Shown: piece by piece, positions 442 through 29,183 of the stretch | Layout of the letters: each line of letters starts with the position of its first letter | Position numbering within the stretch: position 1 is the stretch's first letter | DNA from: an uncultured Clostridia bacterium | GTDB taxonomy: Bacteria; Bacillota; Clostridia; Lachnospirales; Anaerotignaceae | Assembly: GCA_944377425.1 (NCBI GenBank) | Contig: CALWEX010000017.1 | Span: forward strand, 1 to 35,891 | Direction of reading: 5' to 3' | DNA length: 35,891 nt | Notes under the pieces: generated by a model | What the model saw: only the letters and a program-made list of their open reading frames with translations | Told to the model about the DNA's origin: nothing | The model's database searches: none | Position numbers and translations under genes: made by a program

Positions 442-2391
442 ATGATTAAAGAAATATCCAATTTTAATATTACAAATAAAATAATACAATATGTCTCAGA
501 AATATCAGAATATGTAGGTGCACTTACGTTTAATAAAAGATTTTTAAAATGTAATAATACAGACGAAAATATAGTTATAAGCACAATACAAGGCTCCCTT
601 GCAGTTGAAGGAACTAATCTTACTAAGGAACAGATTGCCTCTTGCTTAAATAATAAACAGCCAAACATTTCTTATGATAATATTTTAAAAGTTAAAAATT
701 ATTATAATATGTATAAAGACATTGATAAGATTAATCCATATGACAGTAATTCATTAAACAATATTCATCTTATGCTGATGACAGGTATAGATAAAGACGC
801 TGGTAATTTTAGAAATTTAGATGAAGTAAACTATAAAGACAACTTAACAGAATATCAATATAGTTCTTATATTGTTAAGGAACTTTTAAAATGGACAGAG
901 GAAAGTAATCTTCATGTGCTTATAAAAAGTTGTCTGTTTCATTATGAATTTATATCAATGAAGCCTTTTAAAGATGGAAATGAAAGAACAGCAATGTTTT
1001 GGCATAATATTTTGCTTTTTAAATGGAGAGAAATATTTGGAGGCGTATCCATTGAATCAATAGTTTATAATATGATGCAGGAGTATAAAGATGCTTTTAA
1101 TTTATCAAAAAATAGTAATAATGCTACTGCATTTATAGAATTTATGCTGTTTGTCATAAAGACAGATCTTTTTAACATAGTTTTAGAAAAAAGGCTTTAT
1201 AGAGATAAATACCAACAAAGATGGATGAAAATAAGTAAATTTACAAAAGAAAATGAAGGAATAGTAAGAAATTCTGATGTAAGGTCTATGTTTAATGTTT
1301 CTTCTGCCACAGCAAATAGAATATTAAAAAAATTTGTTAAAGAAAAAAAGCTTATGTTATTAAAATATGGCTCATATTGGGCTTATAAAAACATTGAAAA
1401 TATTCCAATTTATTCAATAAGAAGTTTGTTGTGTAAAGTTATTTCGGAAGAACTTTCTATTGATGAAAATCAAATTAAACAAAATACAAACTTTGATTTT
1501 GAAAATATAGTTCGATCACTTTATTCGGTTTTAGATAAGATATTTGATGATAATAACTTGTGTAAACAATTATCTGAGGGCAAAAAAGAATATGTGCTTG
1601 ATTATAGAGCAAAGGATTTAATAAAGATATTATTTTACAAAGTAATAGAATTTAAAGATGAAAAATATATGAAAGATAATATTGAAGCTTGTGATTTTTA
1701 TATAGATGCTAAAAATAAAGAATTTGCCTTATTAAATTCATATATTGCAAATATAATATATGATCGTTATGCCGAAAATAAAGATAATATAGAAAGTAAT
1801 TTTGAAATGATTTTTTATAATGCTTTACAAAGTTATATCGATAGTTACAATGAATATTGTGATACGAACAAAAGAATAATGAATTATAATAGAAAAGAGT
1901 TTTCTTTTGAAGCTTATTATATAAATTGTGAAAATAAAAAAAGTTTTAGCATAGTTAAAGCATGGATTTTAATTCCAGGTTATGATAACTATAACGATTC
2001 TAAATTTATGTATTTTCCCGAAGTTGTAAAAGAACGAAATGTATTTAAAGAAAATGCTCATAAGTTTAGTGAAGAAGAACTAAAAGATTTTGTGGATAGT
2101 GTTTCAATGAGTTATATAGGACAATTCATGGTTTTCATTAATTTAGAGGAAAAAACAGAACGAGCATATGAAATGCTAAATAAATATTGTAAAGAATTGC
2201 TGCAAACAAAATTTAAAATAGAAACTGCTGAACCAATATTTTATTCTAAAGAATATAAGGTATATAATTCCCTTAAAATTTTTACGGTTATGTTTCCAGA
2301 TATTTTAGACAGGCTTATTAAAAAGTATGCTGTTGAAAGCTATAATATATATCTGTATAAAGACTGCAAACTAAATTTTGGAAAAAAATAA
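442..2391 (+). CDS. Fic-domain protein with N-terminal inhibitory motif, degenerate active site and long unknown C-terminal region
   Basis: This 649-residue protein starts at an ATG preceded by GGAG at 431-434. Residues 52-57 (SLAVEG) fit the Fic inhibitory-helix pattern S/T-x3-E-G/N. Residues 106-240 carry the Fic fold, including GNFRN at 121-125. The active-site loop at 174-182 reads KPFKDGNER where the family has HPFxDGNGR. The catalytic His is Lys174 (codon AAG) and the second Gly is Glu181, while Asp178, Gly179, Asn180 and Arg182 remain. A winged-helix segment follows at about 255-317 (NVSSATANRILKKFVKEKKL). Residues 320-649 match no family I recognise. Fic proteins usually transfer AMP from ATP to a target hydroxyl. 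With no catalytic His, this one may be inactive, act as a regulator or use different chemistry. It lies in an AT-rich mobile element, where Fic proteins often act as toxins or defence factors. Confidence 0.8.
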   Translation: MIKEISNFNITNKIIQYVSEISEYVGALTFNKRFLKCNNTDENIVISTIQGSLAVEGTNLTKEQIASCLNNKQPNISYDNILKVKNYYNMYKDIDKINPYDSNSLNNIHLMLMTGIDKDAGNFRNLDEVNYKDNLTEYQYSSYIVKELLKWTEESNLHVLIKSCLFHYEFISMKPFKDGNERTAMFWHNILLFKWREIFGGVSIESIVYNMMQEYKDAFNLSKNSNNATAFIEFMLFVIKTDLFNIVLEKRLYRDKYQQRWMKISKFTKENEGIVRNSDVRSMFNVSSATANRILKKFVKEKKLMLLKYGSYWAYKNIENIPIYSIRSLLCKVISEELSIDENQIKQNTNFDFENIVRSLYSVLDKIFDDNNLCKQLSEGKKEYVLDYRAKDLIKILFYKVIEFKDEKYMKDNIEACDFYIDAKNKEFALLNSYIANIIYDRYAENKDNIESNFEMIFYNALQSYIDSYNEYCDTNKRIMNYNRKEFSFEAYYINCENKKSFSIVKAWILIPGYDNYNDSKFMYFPEVVKERNVFKENAHKFSEEELKDFVDSVSMSYIGQFMVFINLEEKTERAYEMLNKYCKELLQTKFKIETAEPIFYSKEYKVYNSLKIFTVMFPDILDRLIKKYAVESYNIYLYKDCKLNFGKK

Positions 2392-2399
2392 ATGAATGA

Positions 2400-2451
2400 A
2401 AAAGCAAGCCGCAAAAAAGATTAAATTTAATCTTTTTTGCGGCTTGCTTTT
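2400..2451. terminator. Perfect 52-nt palindrome, probable bidirectional terminator
   Basis: Bases 2400-2425 are exactly reverse-complementary to 2426-2451, giving 26 paired positions with no designed loop. The GC-rich part is AAGCAAGCCGC and its complement, flanked by A and T tracts, so either strand would form a hairpin followed by a T run. It begins nine bases after the Fic stop codon. The most economical reading is a transcription terminator. An origin, a cruciform site or a protein-binding palindrome remains possible. Confidence 0.75.
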
Positions 2452-2577
2452 AGTTTTTCATATATTTGATTTAATAATAGTCAATTTTTATAAAATGATA
2501 TTTTTAATGTATAAAACAACTTATCATAAATATGAGCTCAAAAAACAACAAGGTACCTTGGGAACATGGAGTAAGCT

Positions 2578-4239
2578 ATGAGTAAAAAACACAATAAACT
2601 ATCAAAAAAATACAAAGACAAATCCCTAGAAGAGTTAATAAGAGATCAAAATAAAAATTATTTTTGGTTTGGAAATGATTTTTATGATGATGAATATAAT
2701 GGGGGTTTGAGTGAAAGTAACGAATATATATATTCCTGTGATGATTATATATATAATTCCAATGAAGCTGCTGAGGATACATATTTCTATGATGATTATA
2801 TATATAATTCCGAGGAAGATTGGGATGGAATTAATGAGGGTATATATTGCTTCAATAATAAGTACGATGAAGATATATATTCACACAATAATACATTTCT
2901 AACTTTAGGAAATACATATGTTGATGAATCTAAAAGTGCCATTCCAAACTACAAAATGTATGAAAGAATTTGTCAGCGATTTGAATTTGCAGTGTGTGAT
3001 GACAGCCAAATTTATGAGTATATACAAGAAAAGGGTTTATATATGAGGTTGAATAGCAGCGTTTTAGCAAAATTAGCTGCTGAGTCATTAACCTTTAGTG
3101 AAAATCAATCTGTAACAACATACAAGGTAAAACAGGTTGAAGAACGTATAAAACGTGAATGCAGCAAAAGGTTTACCTCAAATGATATAAATTCTAAAAA
3201 GTATTTATTAAATTGCTTAAATGGTGTTTTAAGCTTTGAAGATGGCAGTATAAAGCTATTGCCGCACTCATCAGAGTACATTTTTGATTACTGTATTGAA
3301 GCTGAATATGAAGAAGGTGTTATTTGTGAAGCAGAAAATTTTGAAAAATTTTGTTTAACCTCTTTGGGTGGGGTTGAAAGCAAAAAGAAACTTCTTTTAG
3401 AGTTTTTTGGTTATTGTCTTAGTGACAGTAATGATGCTAAAAAAATACTGTTTTTAAATGGAAAGCCAAATTCAGGAAAAAGCATTGCATTAAAGTTTTT
3501 ACAAAGATTGGTTGGTGAGGATAAAGTGTCAAATATACCAATTCATGAGTTGAGTACGCCTTTTAATCGTGCACAGCTTTTTGGAAAAAAGATTAACATA
3601 CAGGCTGAAATGAAAACATCACCTCTTAATGATATTTCTATTATTAAAGCAATTACAGGCGGAGATAGAATTACAGCAGAGTACAAAGGGCAAGATTCAT
3701 TTTCTTTTATGCCAAAGTGCAAACTTATTTTTGCTGGAAATGCTTTGCCTGCTGCAGCTGATTTTGAGGCTACAAAAGCCTTTACAAACAGGCTTGCGGT
3801 ATTGCTTTTTAACAAAAGTATTTCTGCCGAAGAACAAGACAAAGAACTTTTAGAAAAGCTTTGGGCTGAAAGAAATGAAATTTTTACATTATCTATAAAA
3901 GCGCTATTGGATTTAATTAATAGAGATTATGTTTTTACATCAAATGAAGATTCTGAAAGATTTATAGCTGCTTATTCTATGGATGCTGATCCTGTTGGGT
4001 GTTTTTTAAATGAAGAAATTAACTTTATACCAAGTGGTAATATTCCGGTAAGAGATTTTTATGAAAGTGTAAAGACATATTGTATACAAAACGGATTTTC
4101 TGTACCAAATGACAGGGATATAGGAAAGGCACTTTTGGAAAAATACAATATACCTAAAAAACGAATTAATAAAGACGGGTTAAACGTGTACAGATTTGTT
4201 GGCATAGACTATAAAGAAAGAGGTGAAAATAATGCCTAA
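2578..4239 (+). CDS. Phage/plasmid primase family (D5/P4-type) SF3 helicase with acidic Tyr-rich N-terminus
   Basis: This is a 553-residue replication protein. The SF3 helicase core is clear: Walker A GKPNSGKS at 295-302, Walker B INIQAEM at 339-345, sensor FAGN at 385-388, and the arginine in FTNRL near 405. Before it lies a D5_N-like segment at about 205-245 ([21 protein letters not shown]). A C-terminal winged-helix region at about 480-545 completes the P4/D5 layout. Residues 28-115 hold no primase motif. They are acidic and tyrosine-rich, with two DDYIYNS repeats. So the protein probably unwinds DNA at an element origin and either relies on host primase or has lost its own primase domain. 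The start ATG has GGAG about nine bases upstream. The stop lies inside the integrase gene, so the two are translationally coupled. Confidence 0.85.
2739..2811 (+). repeat. In-frame 22-bp direct repeat in the helicase gene
   Basis: The 22 bases at 2739-2760 recur exactly at 2790-2811, 51 bases (17 codons) apart. Both copies encode DDYIYNS in the acidic N-terminal part of the helicase. A third, weaker copy of the GAATATATATATTCC type lies just before. The unit is very AT-rich (ATTATATATATAATT is itself palindromic). It could reflect slippage or be an iteron-like or melting element inside the gene. Confidence 0.75.
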
Positions 4240-5176
4240 AATTGAGTTTTTTATAGAAAAATGGATAGAAAAAAAGGAAGATTTTATATCTCCAAACACG
4301 CTGTTAAGTTATAAAAGAGCTTTAAGAATAATTGAAGGCTCAGAAGCACTTAATGTTTCCATTGATAAGATTTGTCCGTATAATCTTGAAATCTTTATAG
4401 AAGAGATTAAAGAAGTTTACAGCCCATCAACAATTAAAATTTGCACAGTAGTAGTTAAAGGCGGTCTTAATATTGCTAAAGAACAAGGATATATTGAAGA
4501 TATTCCTGTTTGGAAGGCAAATATAATTACAAATAACGAAAAAAGAGCTCTTGAAAAAGATGAGTTAGAAATATTTTTGAGCCTTATTAAAGGAAAAAGT
4601 TTTGGAAACTTACTTGCTTTTCAGGTATCAACAGGCATGAGGATAGGAGAAGTTATAGGGTTAACATGGGACTGCATAGATTTTGAAAGCCATGAAATAA
4701 ATATTGTTAAATCAGCCCGTCGTGAACAAAATAAAGTAATATCAGTTTTGCCTAAAAATAATAAATGCAGAAAAATTCCATTAAATAATATGGCAGAAGA
4801 GATACTTCTTAATCAAAGGGCTGTATATAGAAAACTTTGCTGCAGAAAGGGCTTTTATGAAAAAAATTTAGTGTTTCCAACAAAAGCCGGAAAATGCTAT
4901 GATACCTCTTTCTTAAATAAAAATTTAAAAGAAGTTTCCAGAAAGATGGAAGAATATTATTTTAAGAAAGGTATTAATAAAAAATTCAGCTTGTCAACAC
5001 ATATACTTCGCCATACATATGCAACACGTTTAATGGAAAAAGGTGTTTCTCTAAAAACAATATCAGAGCTTCTTGGTCATTCTTCCATAGTTACAACATC
5101 TGATACATATTGCCACGTTTCTGAGCAGCAAAAGAGCTTAGCAACAAATTTATTCCAAGTTTCAAGTCCATTATAA
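4232..5176 (+). CDS. Tyrosine site-specific recombinase (phage integrase family)
   Basis: This 314-residue integrase has a SAM-like core-binding domain at about 1-95 and a catalytic domain at about 105-305. All catalytic residues are visible: Arg137 (TGMRIGE), the Lys in the beta-turn near 178-181, His257 and Arg260 (HILRH), His283 (LLGHSS) and the nucleophile Tyr293 (TSDTYCHV). I chose the ATG at 4232 because AGAGGTG sits at a good distance before it. An in-frame GTG at 4223 is part of that ribosome site. The gene overlaps the helicase stop by 8 bases. A helicase-integrase pair like this is the core of many small integrative elements and phage satellites. It may mark an element nested inside the larger one that splits spoIIID. 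Its own attachment site was not identified. The 5177-5343 interval is AT-rich and shows only weak inverted repeats. Confidence 0.92.
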
Positions 5177-5343
5177 AACTATTTATAAAGATAGGATATA
5201 ATTTCAATATGTTTTAAATTATTTATTGGTTTTTGAAATTTAGACCTTAAAATATATGTATTTATAAGGGTTTTGCTGTGTTCCATAAATTTATAACATA
5301 TAGAAAAACCAGTACTCATGGAATTAAAGTTTATTGTAAAAAT

Positions 5344-5372
5344 TAATATTAGTTAGGCATATAGCATAATTT
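5344..5372 (+). promoter_or_regulatory. Candidate sigma-E-type promoter for the small ORF and large serine recombinase
   Basis: TAATATT at 5344-5350 matches the sigma-E -35 consensus KMATATT. After 14 bases comes CATAATTT at 5365-5372, which shares CATA and the final T with the -10 consensus CATACAMT. Transcription would begin near 5380, shortly before the AAGGAGG ribosome site at 5392-5398. The spacing fits, but the -10 matches only in part. Mother-cell sigma-E control is what a sporulation-timed excisionase would need. Confidence 0.45.
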
Positions 5373-5406
5373 TAAATATAAGCTTTTGGACAAGGAGGGC
5401 ATTGTT

Positions 5407-5553
5407 ATGAAAAGCAAAAGCATAAAATACATATTTCACGACGCAAATCCGCCCGAAATAACAGCCGAAAATTTACTTAAAGTTTTGGTTAAAGTTAATG
5501 CGGAGAAAGTTGAAAAAGTAATAAGTGAAAAGACAGCTAAAAAAGTTGTTTAA
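5407..5553 (+). CDS. Small 48-residue protein preceding the large serine recombinase
   Basis: This short gene starts at ATG 5407 with a near-perfect AAGGAGG at 5392-5398 and ends in TAA at 5551-5553. The product starts MKSKSIKYIFHDANPPEITA and continues as a Lys/Val/Glu-rich amphipathic helix (LLKVLVKVNAEKVEKVI). It has no signal peptide or membrane segment. It is separated from the recombinase by a hairpin and shares its strand. I do not recognise a named family. Position, size and charge would suit a recombination directionality factor or another recombinase partner. That is inference from context only. Confidence 0.75.
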   Translation: MKSKSIKYIFHDANPPEITAENLLKVLVKVNAEKVEKVISEKTAKKVV

Positions 5554-5563
5554 AGAAAGCTTC

Positions 5564-5597
5564 AAGCCACTTGCAAAAATGAGCGAGTGGCTTTTTA
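5564..5597 (+). terminator. Hairpin plus T tract between the small ORF and the recombinase (attenuator-like)
   Basis: AAGCCACTTGC at 5564-5574 pairs with GCGAGTGGCTT at 5583-5593 (11 pairs, one a T-G wobble), followed by five T. It lies only about 20 bases before the recombinase start. It would terminate most transcripts from upstream and limit recombinase expression to read-through. Confidence 0.7.
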
Positions 5598-5615
5598 TAT
5601 AATGAGGTGATATTA

Positions 5616-7151
5616 ATGAACATAGCAGCGTATTGCAGAGTTTCTACAGATAAAGAAGACCAGCTTAATAGTTTAGAAGCACAGAAGGAGTTTTTTATTG
5701 AATATGTAAATAGAACGGGTGATAACCTTGTAAAGCTATATGCTGATGAAGGAATATCCGGAACAAAAATTAAGAACAGAAAAGAATTTCTTAAAATGAT
5801 GTCAGATGCTGAAAAAGGGCTTTTTGATATGGTGGTAGTAAAAGATATTTCCCGTTTTGCAAGAAATACTGTTGATTTGCTTCAAAATATAAGAAAGTTA
5901 AAGGCATTAGGAATAGAAACGCAGTTTTTAACAGCAAATATGACAAGCATGGGAAACAGTGAGTTTGTTCTTACAATATTTGGAGCTCTTGCACAGGAGG
6001 AAAGTGCAAATACCTCTAAAAGGGTTAAGTTTGGAAAGAAGCTTAATGCTGAAAAAGGCAGAGTACCTAATATAGTATATGGCTATGATAAGACTATAGG
6101 TGACTACTTTAACCTTTCCATAAACAAAAAAGAAGCTGATGTAATTAAGCAGATTTTTAAATGGTATACCGAAGAAGGATATGGAGCTGTTAAAATAGCA
6201 AATATGCTTAATGAAAAAGGCTTAAAGACAAAGCGTAACTGCTCATGGAGCCAAAATGCTATATGCCGTATACTTACAAATGAGCTGTATACAGGAAAAG
6301 TTGTAAACGGTAAAGAGGAGATTATAGACTTTTTATCAGGCAGAAGGAAAGAAAAAGATGAAACCCAGTGGTTTGTAGTGGAAAAAGAAAATTTACGCAT
6401 AATTGATGATGATACATTTAAAAAGGCACGAGATATACTTAATTCAAGACATAATGCTTTTAAAATTACCCATGAAAGGCAAAGCAATAAACATCTTTTT
6501 TCCACATTGATTAAGTGTAAGGAATGCGGATGGTCTTTTAGAAGGGTTGTAAAGAAATATAAAAATACATATATAAGATGGGTGTGTTCAAGTCATAATG
6601 GACGTGGAGCAGACAGCTGCCCAAATGCCCAAACAATTGATGAGGACGAGCTTATAGAAGTTATTGAGGAATACTTTGCAGGAGTGCTTAAACAGAAGAA
6701 AAAAGTTATAGACAGCGTACTAATGGAGTTTAAAAAGGTCTATAAGGAAAAAGACGAAAATATGGAGCGTGAGAAGGAAATAACCCAAAACATTGCTAAA
6801 TTAAACAAAGCACGTCAAAAATATATGGATATGTATACCGATGATTTAATTACAAGGGAAGAACTTAATGAAAAAATAGGCGGAGCAAAAAAAGAAATTG
6901 AAAAACTTGAAGATGAGCTTAGAGTAATTTCGTACTACCTTACAAAAGGCGACCGGCTGGAAGAAATATTAAATGCTACATTTAAGGAAGTTGAGGATAT
7001 TACTGATGTAAGACAGATGACAAATGCACAATTAAGGAGTATAATAAAGAAAATTGAAGTTGATAAAGAAGGTACTGTAAATATATATCTTAGACTCTTT
7101 GATGATTTGGGTCTTGATGATACCGTTCTAATTAATAACAACCAAACATAA
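5616..7151 (+). CDS. Large serine recombinase, probable integrase/excisionase of the element in spoIIID
   Basis: This 511-residue protein has an N-terminal resolvase domain at 1-145 with the nucleophile Ser10 (YCRVSTDKEDQ) and the SRFARN segment at 79-84. A recombinase domain covers about 150-260. A zinc-ribbon domain has Cys301, Cys304, Cys324 and Cys335, and a coiled coil runs at about 370-450. All parts are present and uninterrupted, so it should be active. ATG 5616 is preceded by ATGAGGTG. An upstream in-frame GTG at 5607 is part of that ribosome site. The gene ends exactly where the spoIIID remnant begins, facing it. The same layout is known for the skin recombinase SpoIVCA beside the split sigK and for SprA in SPbeta. 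The likely job is to excise the element in the mother cell and rejoin spoIIID. Confidence 0.95.
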   Translation: MNIAAYCRVSTDKEDQLNSLEAQKEFFIEYVNRTGDNLVKLYADEGISGTKIKNRKEFLKMMSDAEKGLFDMVVVKDISRFARNTVDLLQNIRKLKALGIETQFLTANMTSMGNSEFVLTIFGALAQEESANTSKRVKFGKKLNAEKGRVPNIVYGYDKTIGDYFNLSINKKEADVIKQIFKWYTEEGYGAVKIANMLNEKGLKTKRNCSWSQNAICRILTNELYTGKVVNGKEEIIDFLSGRRKEKDETQWFVVEKENLRIIDDDTFKKARDILNSRHNAFKITHERQSNKHLFSTLIKCKECGWSFRRVVKKYKNTYIRWVCSSHNGRGADSCPNAQTIDEDELIEVIEEYFAGVLKQKKKVIDSVLMEFKKVYKEKDENMEREKEITQNIAKLNKARQKYMDMYTDDLITREELNEKIGGAKKEIEKLEDELRVISYYLTKGDRLEEILNATFKEVEDITDVRQMTNAQLRSIIKKIEVDKEGTVNIYLRLFDDLGLDDTVLINNNQT

Positions 7152-26004: not shown

Positions 26005-27402
26005 TTACGATTCCACAGCCTTTGACTGAGCTTTCTGCAAATCCTTTTTCCACCAGCCTTTTTTCTTTGTGTAGTAAAGGAAATAAACAATAAACAAAGA
26101 TGATGTTATTATCCACGAAAGCGGGAATGTAAAAAGTATTGTATGCAGTGTCTGATTTTTTGGTACAGCTATAGCAAGCCAAAGTACACGAGGTATGCAT
26201 ACACCGGATATAGCTAAAAGCATAGGTTTAAAGGAGTTACCTGTTCCACGCAGTGTACCTGAAAGCACTTCTATGCAGATATACCATATAAAGAACGGCG
26301 GAAGATAATGCATTATAATAACACCTATGCTTATAACTGTTGGGTCTGTTATAAACAGGCTTAAAAGATTGCTGCTGAATGTATACAGACAAAAACTTAT
26401 AAGCAGTGTGGCTACAAGAGCCATTATAAGACATTCTTTAACGCTTTTCATAACACGGTCTTTACGTCCGGCGCCATAGTTTTGTCCGGCGAATGTTGTC
26501 ATTGAAGTACCGAATGACGCGATTGTCATCCAGAATATGGTTTCTATTTTGCTGTATGTGCTCCAAGCGGCTACAGTATCTGTTCCCAAAAGGTTTACGT
26601 AAAACTGAAGGAGTATATTTGGTACATTAAACATAAGTGACTGTATGCCGGCAGGAAGGCCTACTCTTAACATTCTTATAAGAAGATTAAGACGGATTCC
26701 CAAGTGTGCCGGATATATTCTATAGCAGTCTTTTGATATAGCCAGTGTACCTATAGCCATAATAGCACTTATAAGCTGTGAAAGTATTGTAGCAAGTGCT
26801 GCACCGGCAACACCCATATTGCATACAACAACAAAGAATAAGTCAAGGCCTATATTTATAAAGCAAGTTATAATAAGGAATATAAGCGGCCTTTTTGAGT
26901 CGCCTACGGCACGGAGTACAGATGCACCCATATTATAAAGCATGTTAGGCACCATGCCTAAAAAGTATATCCTTAAGTAAGTAATTGAAAGGTCTATAAT
27001 ATCATCTGGTGTAGCTATGGCTCTTAAAATTGTAGGTGTAAGTAAAAAGCCTAATATACATACTACAAGGCCAAAAAGCGCTGAAAAAGTAATAGCGGTA
27101 TGCACAGAACGCTGAGTATGGATATAATTTTTTGCACCATAAAATTGTGCTATTATAACTGACGCTCCAGATGTTATACCTATTGAGAAATAAACTATAA
27201 CATCTATTATTTTGCCTGTCGAGCCGCCTACGGCTGAAAGTGCTTCTTTGCCCAAGTACCGGCCTACTATAACGGTGTCGGCCATATTATACATCTGCTG
27301 GAAAAAAGCGCCAAAAAGCAGTGGAAAGAAGAATATAAGCAGCTGCTTCCAAATGACGCCTTCGGTAATAGCATTGTTTTTAACTAATTTAGAGTTTTCC
27401 AT
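26005..27402 (-). CDS. MATE family efflux transporter (second copy)
   Basis: This 465-residue transporter has about twelve hydrophobic segments and the repeated MatE domain. The N-terminal FFFPLLFGAFFQQMYNMADT VIVGRYLGKEALSAVGGSTG region is a family hallmark. It has the NorM/DinF-like layout and is not closely similar to the MATE at 8565. The basic C-terminal tail (KKKGWWKKDLQKAQ) is cytoplasmic. AGGAGG precedes the ATG. It is monocistronic, with its own promoter upstream. Substrate unknown. Confidence 0.93.
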   Translation of the reverse strand: MENSKLVKNNAITEGVIWKQLLIFFFPLLFGAFFQQMYNMADTVIVGRYLGKEALSAVGGSTGKIIDVIVYFSIGITSGASVIIAQFYGAKNYIHTQRSVHTAITFSALFGLVVCILGFLLTPTILRAIATPDDIIDLSITYLRIYFLGMVPNMLYNMGASVLRAVGDSKRPLIFLIITCFINIGLDLFFVVVCNMGVAGAALATILSQLISAIMAIGTLAISKDCYRIYPAHLGIRLNLLIRMLRVGLPAGIQSLMFNVPNILLQFYVNLLGTDTVAAWSTYSKIETIFWMTIASFGTSMTTFAGQNYGAGRKDRVMKSVKECLIMALVATLLISFCLYTFSSNLLSLFITDPTVISIGVIIMHYLPPFFIWYICIEVLSGTLRGTGNSFKPMLLAISGVCIPRVLWLAIAVPKNQTLHTILFTFPLSWIITSSLFIVYFLYYTKKKGWWKKDLQKAQSKAVES

Positions 27403-27749: not shown

Positions 27750-27778
27750 TTTACTTTTTGAAGACCCGATGATATAAT
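27750..27778 (+). promoter_or_regulatory. Candidate promoter of the large non-coding transcript
   Basis: TTTACT at 27750-27755 and a perfect TATAAT at 27773-27778 are 17 bases apart. Transcription would start near 27785. Confidence 0.6.
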
Positions 27779-27943
27779 AATAATCACAAAAGGGAAACAG
27801 ATTAATAAGCAGTTATAAATTTAAAGATATTAATTAATTTAATATCGGTTTATTTATTCCAAGCTTATTTAATCAGCTTTACATTTTAAAATACCTCAAA
27901 ATGTTAAGCCATTGTTTTTCTCTTAATCTAACTTAGGAAGGGG

Positions 27944-28045
27944 ATGTCTGCTATGGTAATGAGCGAAGAACCATACTCAATAAGTGAAACACAAATCCGC
28001 AGGTATGCTGTAGCAATAATGAGAGGCGGTAAGGTAACAGTTTAA
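27944..28045 (+). CDS. Short leader ORF in the non-coding transcript
   Basis: The ORF encodes 33 residues (or 30 from ATG 27953), MSAMVMSEEPYSISETQIRR followed by YAVAIMRGGKVTV. AGGAAGGGG lies directly before the first ATG, so ATG 27953 with a longer spacing is the better start. The stop codon is in the loop of a small hairpin (AACAG 28036-28040 with CTGTT 28047-28051). The peptide is soluble and resembles no family I know. It could be translated in its own right or act as a leader whose translation controls folding of the RNA behind it. Confidence 0.55.
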   Translation: MSAMVMSEEPYSISETQIRRYAVAIMRGGKVTV

Positions 28046-28865
28046 TCTGTTTATATCCCTGAGTTAAATCTAATATAATGTGTGGTTTTAAAATTTAATT
28101 TTAAGGCTGTACAATTAATTTGGTTATAAGTTTTCAGGCGGTATAGATAAGATTCAATTAATATTCTAAACCGCATGAATTGAAAATATAGTAAAATATA
28201 TAAGCTATAGCGCTTGTGGTAATACCTTAATACAAATAAAATTAACAAAGCTTTTTATTACAGGCGGAAGTTGAAAAAATATAAATTTCCCTTAGGATTA
28301 AGTTAAGGGCTGGCTTAAAAGTTAAAAGCCTTTAAAATAATTTGTTTATCACCTTAAAGAAGTGAAATTCAAATTACTGTAATATTTAAGCCAAGTTAAT
28401 AAGTATTAACAGGTATTGAGTTTAAAATTTAATAGAGATTACGAAGAATAGAACATTTTAACACTACTAAAAGTCAACCGTATAAAATAAAAATATAAGC
28501 ATGTAAACAAAGATTATTATGATTGCAAGAATATTATCTGCCGGATAATTTAAAACGGTTTACACTTTCGTTACAGAAGAAGTAGTTAGGAGCTAAGTGA
28601 ACGTTTAGTATTTACAAAGCGTTGATTAATTATAATTCAGTAAACCGAATGTATATGAAAAATGTTTGTTGGGGCGGATAAAGATTCTTAAGTTAATTAA
28701 ATAATTACCTTGCTTAGTTTAATATGGTACAGCTTTTAGCCAGATAAGAAATGAAAATTTCTTCGGCTCAAGCCGTATAAAAGCCTTAAATTATTAGATA
28801 ATATAGTAATATATAATTTTAGGCACGGCAGGGATTAACATAGATTAAACCTAAAAAAATATTAT

Positions 28866-28897
28866 GGCCATGGGATTAAAAACCCCATGGCTTTTTT
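28866..28897 (+). terminator. Terminator of the large RNA
   Basis: GCCATGGG at 28867-28874 pairs with CCCATGGC at 28884-28891, followed by six T. Confidence 0.92.
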
Positions 28898-28943: not shown

Positions 28944-29183
28944 TTATTTAAAATATTTATTGATAAATAATTTTACAGCTAAAACAATAGCTATAATAAC
29001 AACAGTTACTACAGCGTAAAATATAATACTTGTATACCATGGGGCAGAAGTTACAGCATAAAATTCTGGATTGCGGCAAAAATCACCATACTGCCATATG
29101 CACTGGCCTATAAATACACCTATAAAGGCGCCTATTATGCAATTTAAAACACGGTTAAGCTGTTTTATAGTTACGCCACCCAA
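28944..29183 (-). CDS. Small two-TM membrane protein of unknown function
   Basis: The frame encodes up to 79 residues with two hydrophobic segments (LNRVLNCIIGAFIGVFIGQC and a C-terminal one, TSIIFYAVVTVVIIAIVLAV) and a short basic tail. I do not know a name for it. The start is uncertain. TTG 29183 is part of GGGTGG (29181-29176), which looks like the ribosome site. Seven bases after that site lies an in-frame ATA at 29168-29166, giving a product that starts at IKQLNRVLN. No ATG or GTG is available in that region. Confidence 0.65.
   Translation of the reverse strand: MGGVTIKQLNRVLNCIIGAFIGVFIGQCIWQYGDFCRNPEFYAVTSAPWYTSIIFYAVVTVVIIAIVLAVKLFINKYFK

Follow-up and report, generated by a model that had tools for sequence, protein, structure and literature searches.

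The window, by which we mean the whole 35.9-kb stretch of DNA analysed (35,891 nucleotides), comes from a gut Lachnospirales bacterium and contains a predicted non-coding RNA gene of about 1.1 kb at 27785-28897, laid out as one promoter-to-terminator unit. This gene and all of its parts described below lie on the forward strand. An extended -10 promoter (TTTACT-17-TATAAT, the -10 being preceded by TG) was found at 27750-27778, and an intrinsic terminator, consisting of a 9-bp stem (28866-28874/28884-28892) followed by T6, was found at 28866-28897. A MATE transporter gene (26005-27402, reverse strand) is divergent from the RNA gene. Downstream, all on the opposite strand, lie an unclassified 79-aa ORF, a GNAT acetyltransferase gene and an iron-containing alcohol dehydrogenase (Fe-ADH) gene. 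The RNA gene is single copy in its genome, and no tRNA was found in the 35.9 kb. The longest forward ORF within the gene has 33 codons; the claim in the original prediction that there is almost no reading frame was nearly right, and this frame (27944-28045) had been overlooked. At the other end of the window, positions 442-7151 (forward strand) hold an apparent mobile element, in which genes for a Fic/DOC protein, a D5_N/DUF5906 protein, a phage integrase and a large serine recombinase stand in a row.

The RNA was found at the same locus, with MATE and ADH synteny retained, in the genome of the window (G000) and in three other species. G003 and G002 were 92% and 91% identical to the window, respectively, and G001, Lachnospiraceae bacterium NSJ-143, was alignable over the full length with 68% identity by BLAST and 74-77% over aligned bases. 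G004 has a shortened form of the RNA, about 0.4 kb long, at a different locus (L009, about 2660-3155, contig C159), with ADH and MATE on contigs C81 and C127. The RNA was not detected in G005, and its absence there together with its shortening in G004 shows that it is dispensable or replaceable. A DNA search of 58 genomes of the family revealed no credible match outside the genus. Searches with a profile of the small-ORF peptide (58 family genomes), a pattern of the 3' motif (392 order genomes) and a profile of the 5' block (295 order genomes) likewise returned the genus only; the best outside match of the 5' block sits in a 126-aa ORF. In wider genome contigs the 3'-motif pattern matched the genus and scattered sites in unrelated phyla, which we read as chance, and the sole outside match inspected, in Peptoniphilus, was rejected as it had none of the surrounding features. 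No credible match to the RNA was found among phages, plasmids and viral contigs.

The promoter scan alone gave 22 matches compared with 19.3 in shuffled sequence, which is no enrichment, and the promoter call therefore takes its weight from conservation. The promoter is conserved in G003 and G002 and has the form TTTACA-18-TATAAT in G001, making four species with the window. The terminator is also conserved, and its stem carries compensatory changes in step in both G001 and G004.

The forward strand of the locus folds far more stably than shuffled sequence (z = -6.24; 994 nt, 20 shuffles), and a subregion of the RNA gene gave z = -6.13. As controls (20 shuffles each), z was -3.93 for the reverse strand and -1.49 for a piece of the MATE gene of the same length. 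Base composition alone is insufficient to explain the fold of the RNA gene. The unit of about 1.1 kb that the original prediction had outlined is confirmed and strengthened, and its coordinates, promoter and terminator were right.

Minimum-energy folds were made separately for the window, G003, G002 and G001, and a structure-aware alignment was then built. This procedure replaced RNAalifold on a sequence-only alignment, which mispaired several arms. The separate folds revealed a largely common architecture, and 142 aligned base pairs were common to the independent folds of the window and G001. For a permutation null, the G001 substitutions were redistributed, within bins of 60 nt, over sites that carry the same base in the window; the shared pairs then averaged 16 ± 9 with a maximum of 47 (60 trials), although this null splits invariant runs and somewhat overstates the excess. 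The fold energy of G001 was -270 compared with -232 ± 8 for the permuted copies. Of the common pairs, 7 had changed on both sides and 12 on one side. About one quarter of the pairs predicted in the window were broken or gapped in G001, so the structure model is a draft, some parts of which are incorrect or variable. With five sequences that represent about three independent lineages, the covariation statistics for single pairs are weak. At the level of helices, compensatory changes were observed in H1, H4, H6, the 8-bp helix and the terminator in G001, with those in H4 and the terminator also seen in G004.

The 5' domain (27791-27921), defined from the folds and the comparison, contains H1 (27791-27799/27913-27921), H2 (27800-27805/27869-27874) and the hairpin H3 (27826-27833/27839-27846). 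In H1, GGGAAACA/TGTTTTTC of the window corresponds to GGAGAAAA/TTTTCTCC of G001. A match between 27790-27797 and the interior segment 28286-28293, which had been put forward for the 5' end, is lost in G001, where the local partner 27913-27921 is retained. The most conserved block (27936-28030) follows and is present in all five species that carry the RNA, including G004. H4 (27997-28219) consists of two segments, 27997-28004/28212-28219 and 28007-28014/28204-28211, with the window sequence CCGCAGGT..GCTGTAGC/GCTATAGC..GCTTGTGG. It was rebuilt as CCGC..ACGCTGTAG/TTACAGCGT..GCGG in G001 and as TCCGTAAAA.AGCTG/CAGCT.TTTTACGGA in G004. H5 (28026-28030/28170-28174), which spans 28026-28174, is retained in G004 with its long tip deleted. 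The next arm (28220-28418) is closed by H6 (28220-28227/28411-28418), which covaries from TAATACCT/AGGTATTG in the window to TAATATCAAAGG/CCTTTGATATTA in G001.

The long 3' arm (28442-28765), again defined from the folds and the comparison, includes five helices: 28442-28448/28759-28765, 28467-28474/28732-28739, 28477-28483/28722-28728, 28534-28542/28673-28681 and the 8-bp helix 28556-28563/28640-28647. The last of these had been named in the original prediction and is borne out by two double-compensated pairs in G001 (CGGTTTAC/GTAAACCG to CAGTTTAT/ATAAACTG). A three-way junction with a GAAA tetraloop had also been proposed at 28732-28784; this GAAA hairpin is possible, but its strands join long-range helices with 28442-28474 in the minimum-energy folds of the four long homologues, and the GAAA loop is lost in G001. 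A pairing of 27947-27982 with 28667-28681 was dropped, as in both the window and G001 the segment 28673-28681 forms a helix with 28534-28542. Ahead of the 3' end lies the H11 hairpin (28783-28824), which is shorter in G001. The predicted 7-bp helix before the terminator (28788-28794/28813-28819) does appear in the minimum-energy fold, and G001, which is without the tip, retains GCCTTT/AAAGGC. No complementary hairpin loops of at least six bases were present in the predicted folds.

These observations bear on whether the region is a gene in decay, a mobile element such as an intron, or merely AT-rich DNA that folds artefactually. The region is indeed AT-rich, undetected in G005 and short in G004, as such an origin might leave it. 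Against this, the RNA keeps 74-77% identity over aligned bases, compared with 84% for the protein of the adjacent MATE gene, compensatory changes are present, no intron model of Rfam matches, and the sequence is single copy and has no phage, plasmid or viral counterpart. A decayed protein gene, which the original prediction had named as its own refutation, was looked for and none was found, and the covariation that it had expected among homologous regions was tested and is present. We therefore regard decay, mobility and artefact as very improbable. The predicted large structured non-coding transcript is supported by the conserved structure, the compensatory changes, and the promoter and terminator conserved in sister species.

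The short version in G004 separates a core from a periphery. A promoter-like TTTACA-17-TATAAT stands just upstream of its core; the 5' domain is missing, and H5 and both long arms are shortened. The block 27936-28030, H4, H5, a GCGGATA segment, strand C (described below) and the terminator are all retained. We define the core as H4/H5 together with the 27936-28030 block, the terminator and strand C; the 5' domain and the long arms are peripheral, because G004 lacks or shortens them.

The block retained in G004 overlaps the small ORF (27944-28045; 33 codons, or 30 from the second ATG), which lies behind the Shine-Dalgarno-like GGAAGGGG and stays open in each of the five species. RNAIII/hld-type dual-function sRNAs are long structured RNAs that contain a small ORF. 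The transcript could similarly be an mRNA for a peptide of 30-33 residues (MSAMVMSEEPYSISETQIRRYAVAIMRGGKVTV) with a long structured 3' part, comparable to RNAIII/hld or SgrS/SgrT. The Shine-Dalgarno-like element and the frame persist in five of five species with EEPYSI invariant, G004 keeps this block though most other parts are lost, and four of its codon changes are synonymous, all of which would suit a coding role. The counts of changes, however, match random expectation: the window and G001 differ by 0 synonymous and 10 nonsynonymous codon changes (random placement, 2.4 and 10.3), and the window and G004 by 4 and 12 (random placement, 2.5 and 16.1). Synonymous changes did not exceed random placement in any pair, and purifying selection on the peptide was thus not detected, the changes being few and the power low. 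In addition, the second half of the frame forms one strand of H4, in which the changes are compensatory, and the peptide has no Pfam match. Judged from these substitutions, RNA constraint is enough to account for the conservation of the small ORF, and the changes fit RNA pairing better than coding. The RNA thus shares a small ORF with the RNAIII/hld-type sRNAs and differs in that peptide selection was undetected, and we consider a dual function rather unlikely, although it is the least improbable of the alternatives.

Three further segments, strand A (28040-28063), strand B (28133-28154) and strand C (28829-28850), were almost invariant among the four long members. Strand A can pair locally with strand B or with strand C near the 3' end. 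Strand C carries the motif GGGATTAA(A)CATARATTAAAC, is present in five of five species and was absent from 387 order genomes outside the genus. Enforcing the A:C pairing in the predicted folds cost 0.1 kcal/mol in G002 and 1.6 in G001, but 7.8 in G003 and 9.6 in the window. The RNA could represent a new very large bacterial class that changes shape: A would pair with B or with C, and the finished transcript would switch from the state adopted during transcription to a closed one. Such an RNA might be a ribozyme or an assembly made of RNA only. As G004 has strand C without strand A, strand C must serve another role too, and we hold such a shape-changing class to be doubtful.

The synteny with MATE and ADH in G000-G003 raises the question of a cis-acting element, that is, a long leader or an antisense RNA for a neighbour, most plausibly for the divergent MATE transporter. 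This is quite unlikely in our view, since the terminator closes the unit before any same-strand gene, the RNA of G004 sits on a contig other than those of MATE and ADH, and a conserved fold of 1.1 kb is unnecessary for an antisense RNA or a leader. Its own promoter and terminator, the autonomous fold, the opposite strand of the downstream neighbours and the other locus in G004 argue instead for action in trans. Among the neighbours, the 79-aa hydrophobic ORF (28944-29183, reverse strand) between the RNA and the GNAT gene showed no Pfam match; it lies beside the RNA in G002 (49% identical) and G003 (45%) and is absent from G001, G004 and G005. It was rejected as a protein partner of the RNA, being missing in G001 and conserved far less than the RNA.

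To place the RNA among known families, we compared the whole window with the Rfam covariance models, and no family matched at gathering scores. At E ≤ 10 the locus gave only scattered sub-threshold matches of unrelated small RNAs. The statement in the original prediction that tmRNA, RNase P and intron cores could not be matched was upheld: a diverged RNase P RNA or tmRNA was rejected, as both genes were located elsewhere in six of six genus genomes, and a group I/II intron was rejected for want of any matching Rfam intron model. That prediction had further offered ROOL, OLE or an undescribed class, of which the last survives. OLE RNA (RF01071) had no covariance-model match over the locus even at E up to 10. 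Like OLE, the RNA here is a large structured RNA encoded once on a Bacillota chromosome, and in both, highly conserved stretches separate the helices. OLE, a membrane-associated RNP, is about 600 nt long (PMC9723947), whereas the RNA here is about 1,100; OLE has oapA in tandem, and no oapA-like gene was recognised among the neighbours here, which are MATE, GNAT, Fe-ADH and the unclassified 79-aa ORF. ROOL RNA (RF03087) was rejected with no covariance-model match in the window, and its model found nothing in six genus genomes, with the control genomes silent too. It is likewise a large ornate RNA of gut and rumen bacteria, but its genes lie in phages or prophages, frequently close to tRNAs (PMC12286853); the window has no tRNA and the RNA no phage homologue. 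GOLLD RNA, also rejected for lack of a covariance-model match, is similarly very large with a conserved region and a variable periphery (PMC12286853), but neither a tRNA array nor a phage context was found around the RNA here.

Taken as a whole, the evidence makes it fairly probable that an independent gene at this locus encodes a large structured ncRNA (about 1.1 kb) that founds an undescribed family in one Lachnospirales genus and would act in trans as a folded particle. We class it as a new family among the large ornate RNAs, separate from the known ones; like such RNAs in general, it is predicted to have a long, stable and evolutionarily conserved fold. The RNA would be transcribed as one piece and, like OLE, ROOL and GOLLD, would work as a multimer of RNA or as the scaffold of an RNP. 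ROOL and GOLLD form RNA nanocages; OLE, ROOL and GOLLD, all solved recently, proved to be dimers or nanocages, and what purpose these serve is still debated (PMC12286853). The RNA probably acts in trans like OLE, and by analogy with OLE and ROOL/GOLLD it may scaffold proteins or self-assemble.

Few bacterial ncRNA classes longer than 500 nt are known. In the openly accessible literature on large bacterial ncRNAs, we found no obvious earlier description of this RNA. Where a sister species has a natural 0.4-kb version, as here, a family of 1.1 kb would itself indicate which part is its minimal core. The genome record of Lachnospiraceae bacterium NSJ-143 is not a MAG and the organism may be cultured, which would make expression and structure directly testable. 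Additionally, a stretch of 55 bases elsewhere in G002 (L008, C43:2564-2619) resembles one of the interior arms (query 605-658) at 79% identity and E = 1.7e-4; it could be a chance match or a fragment.
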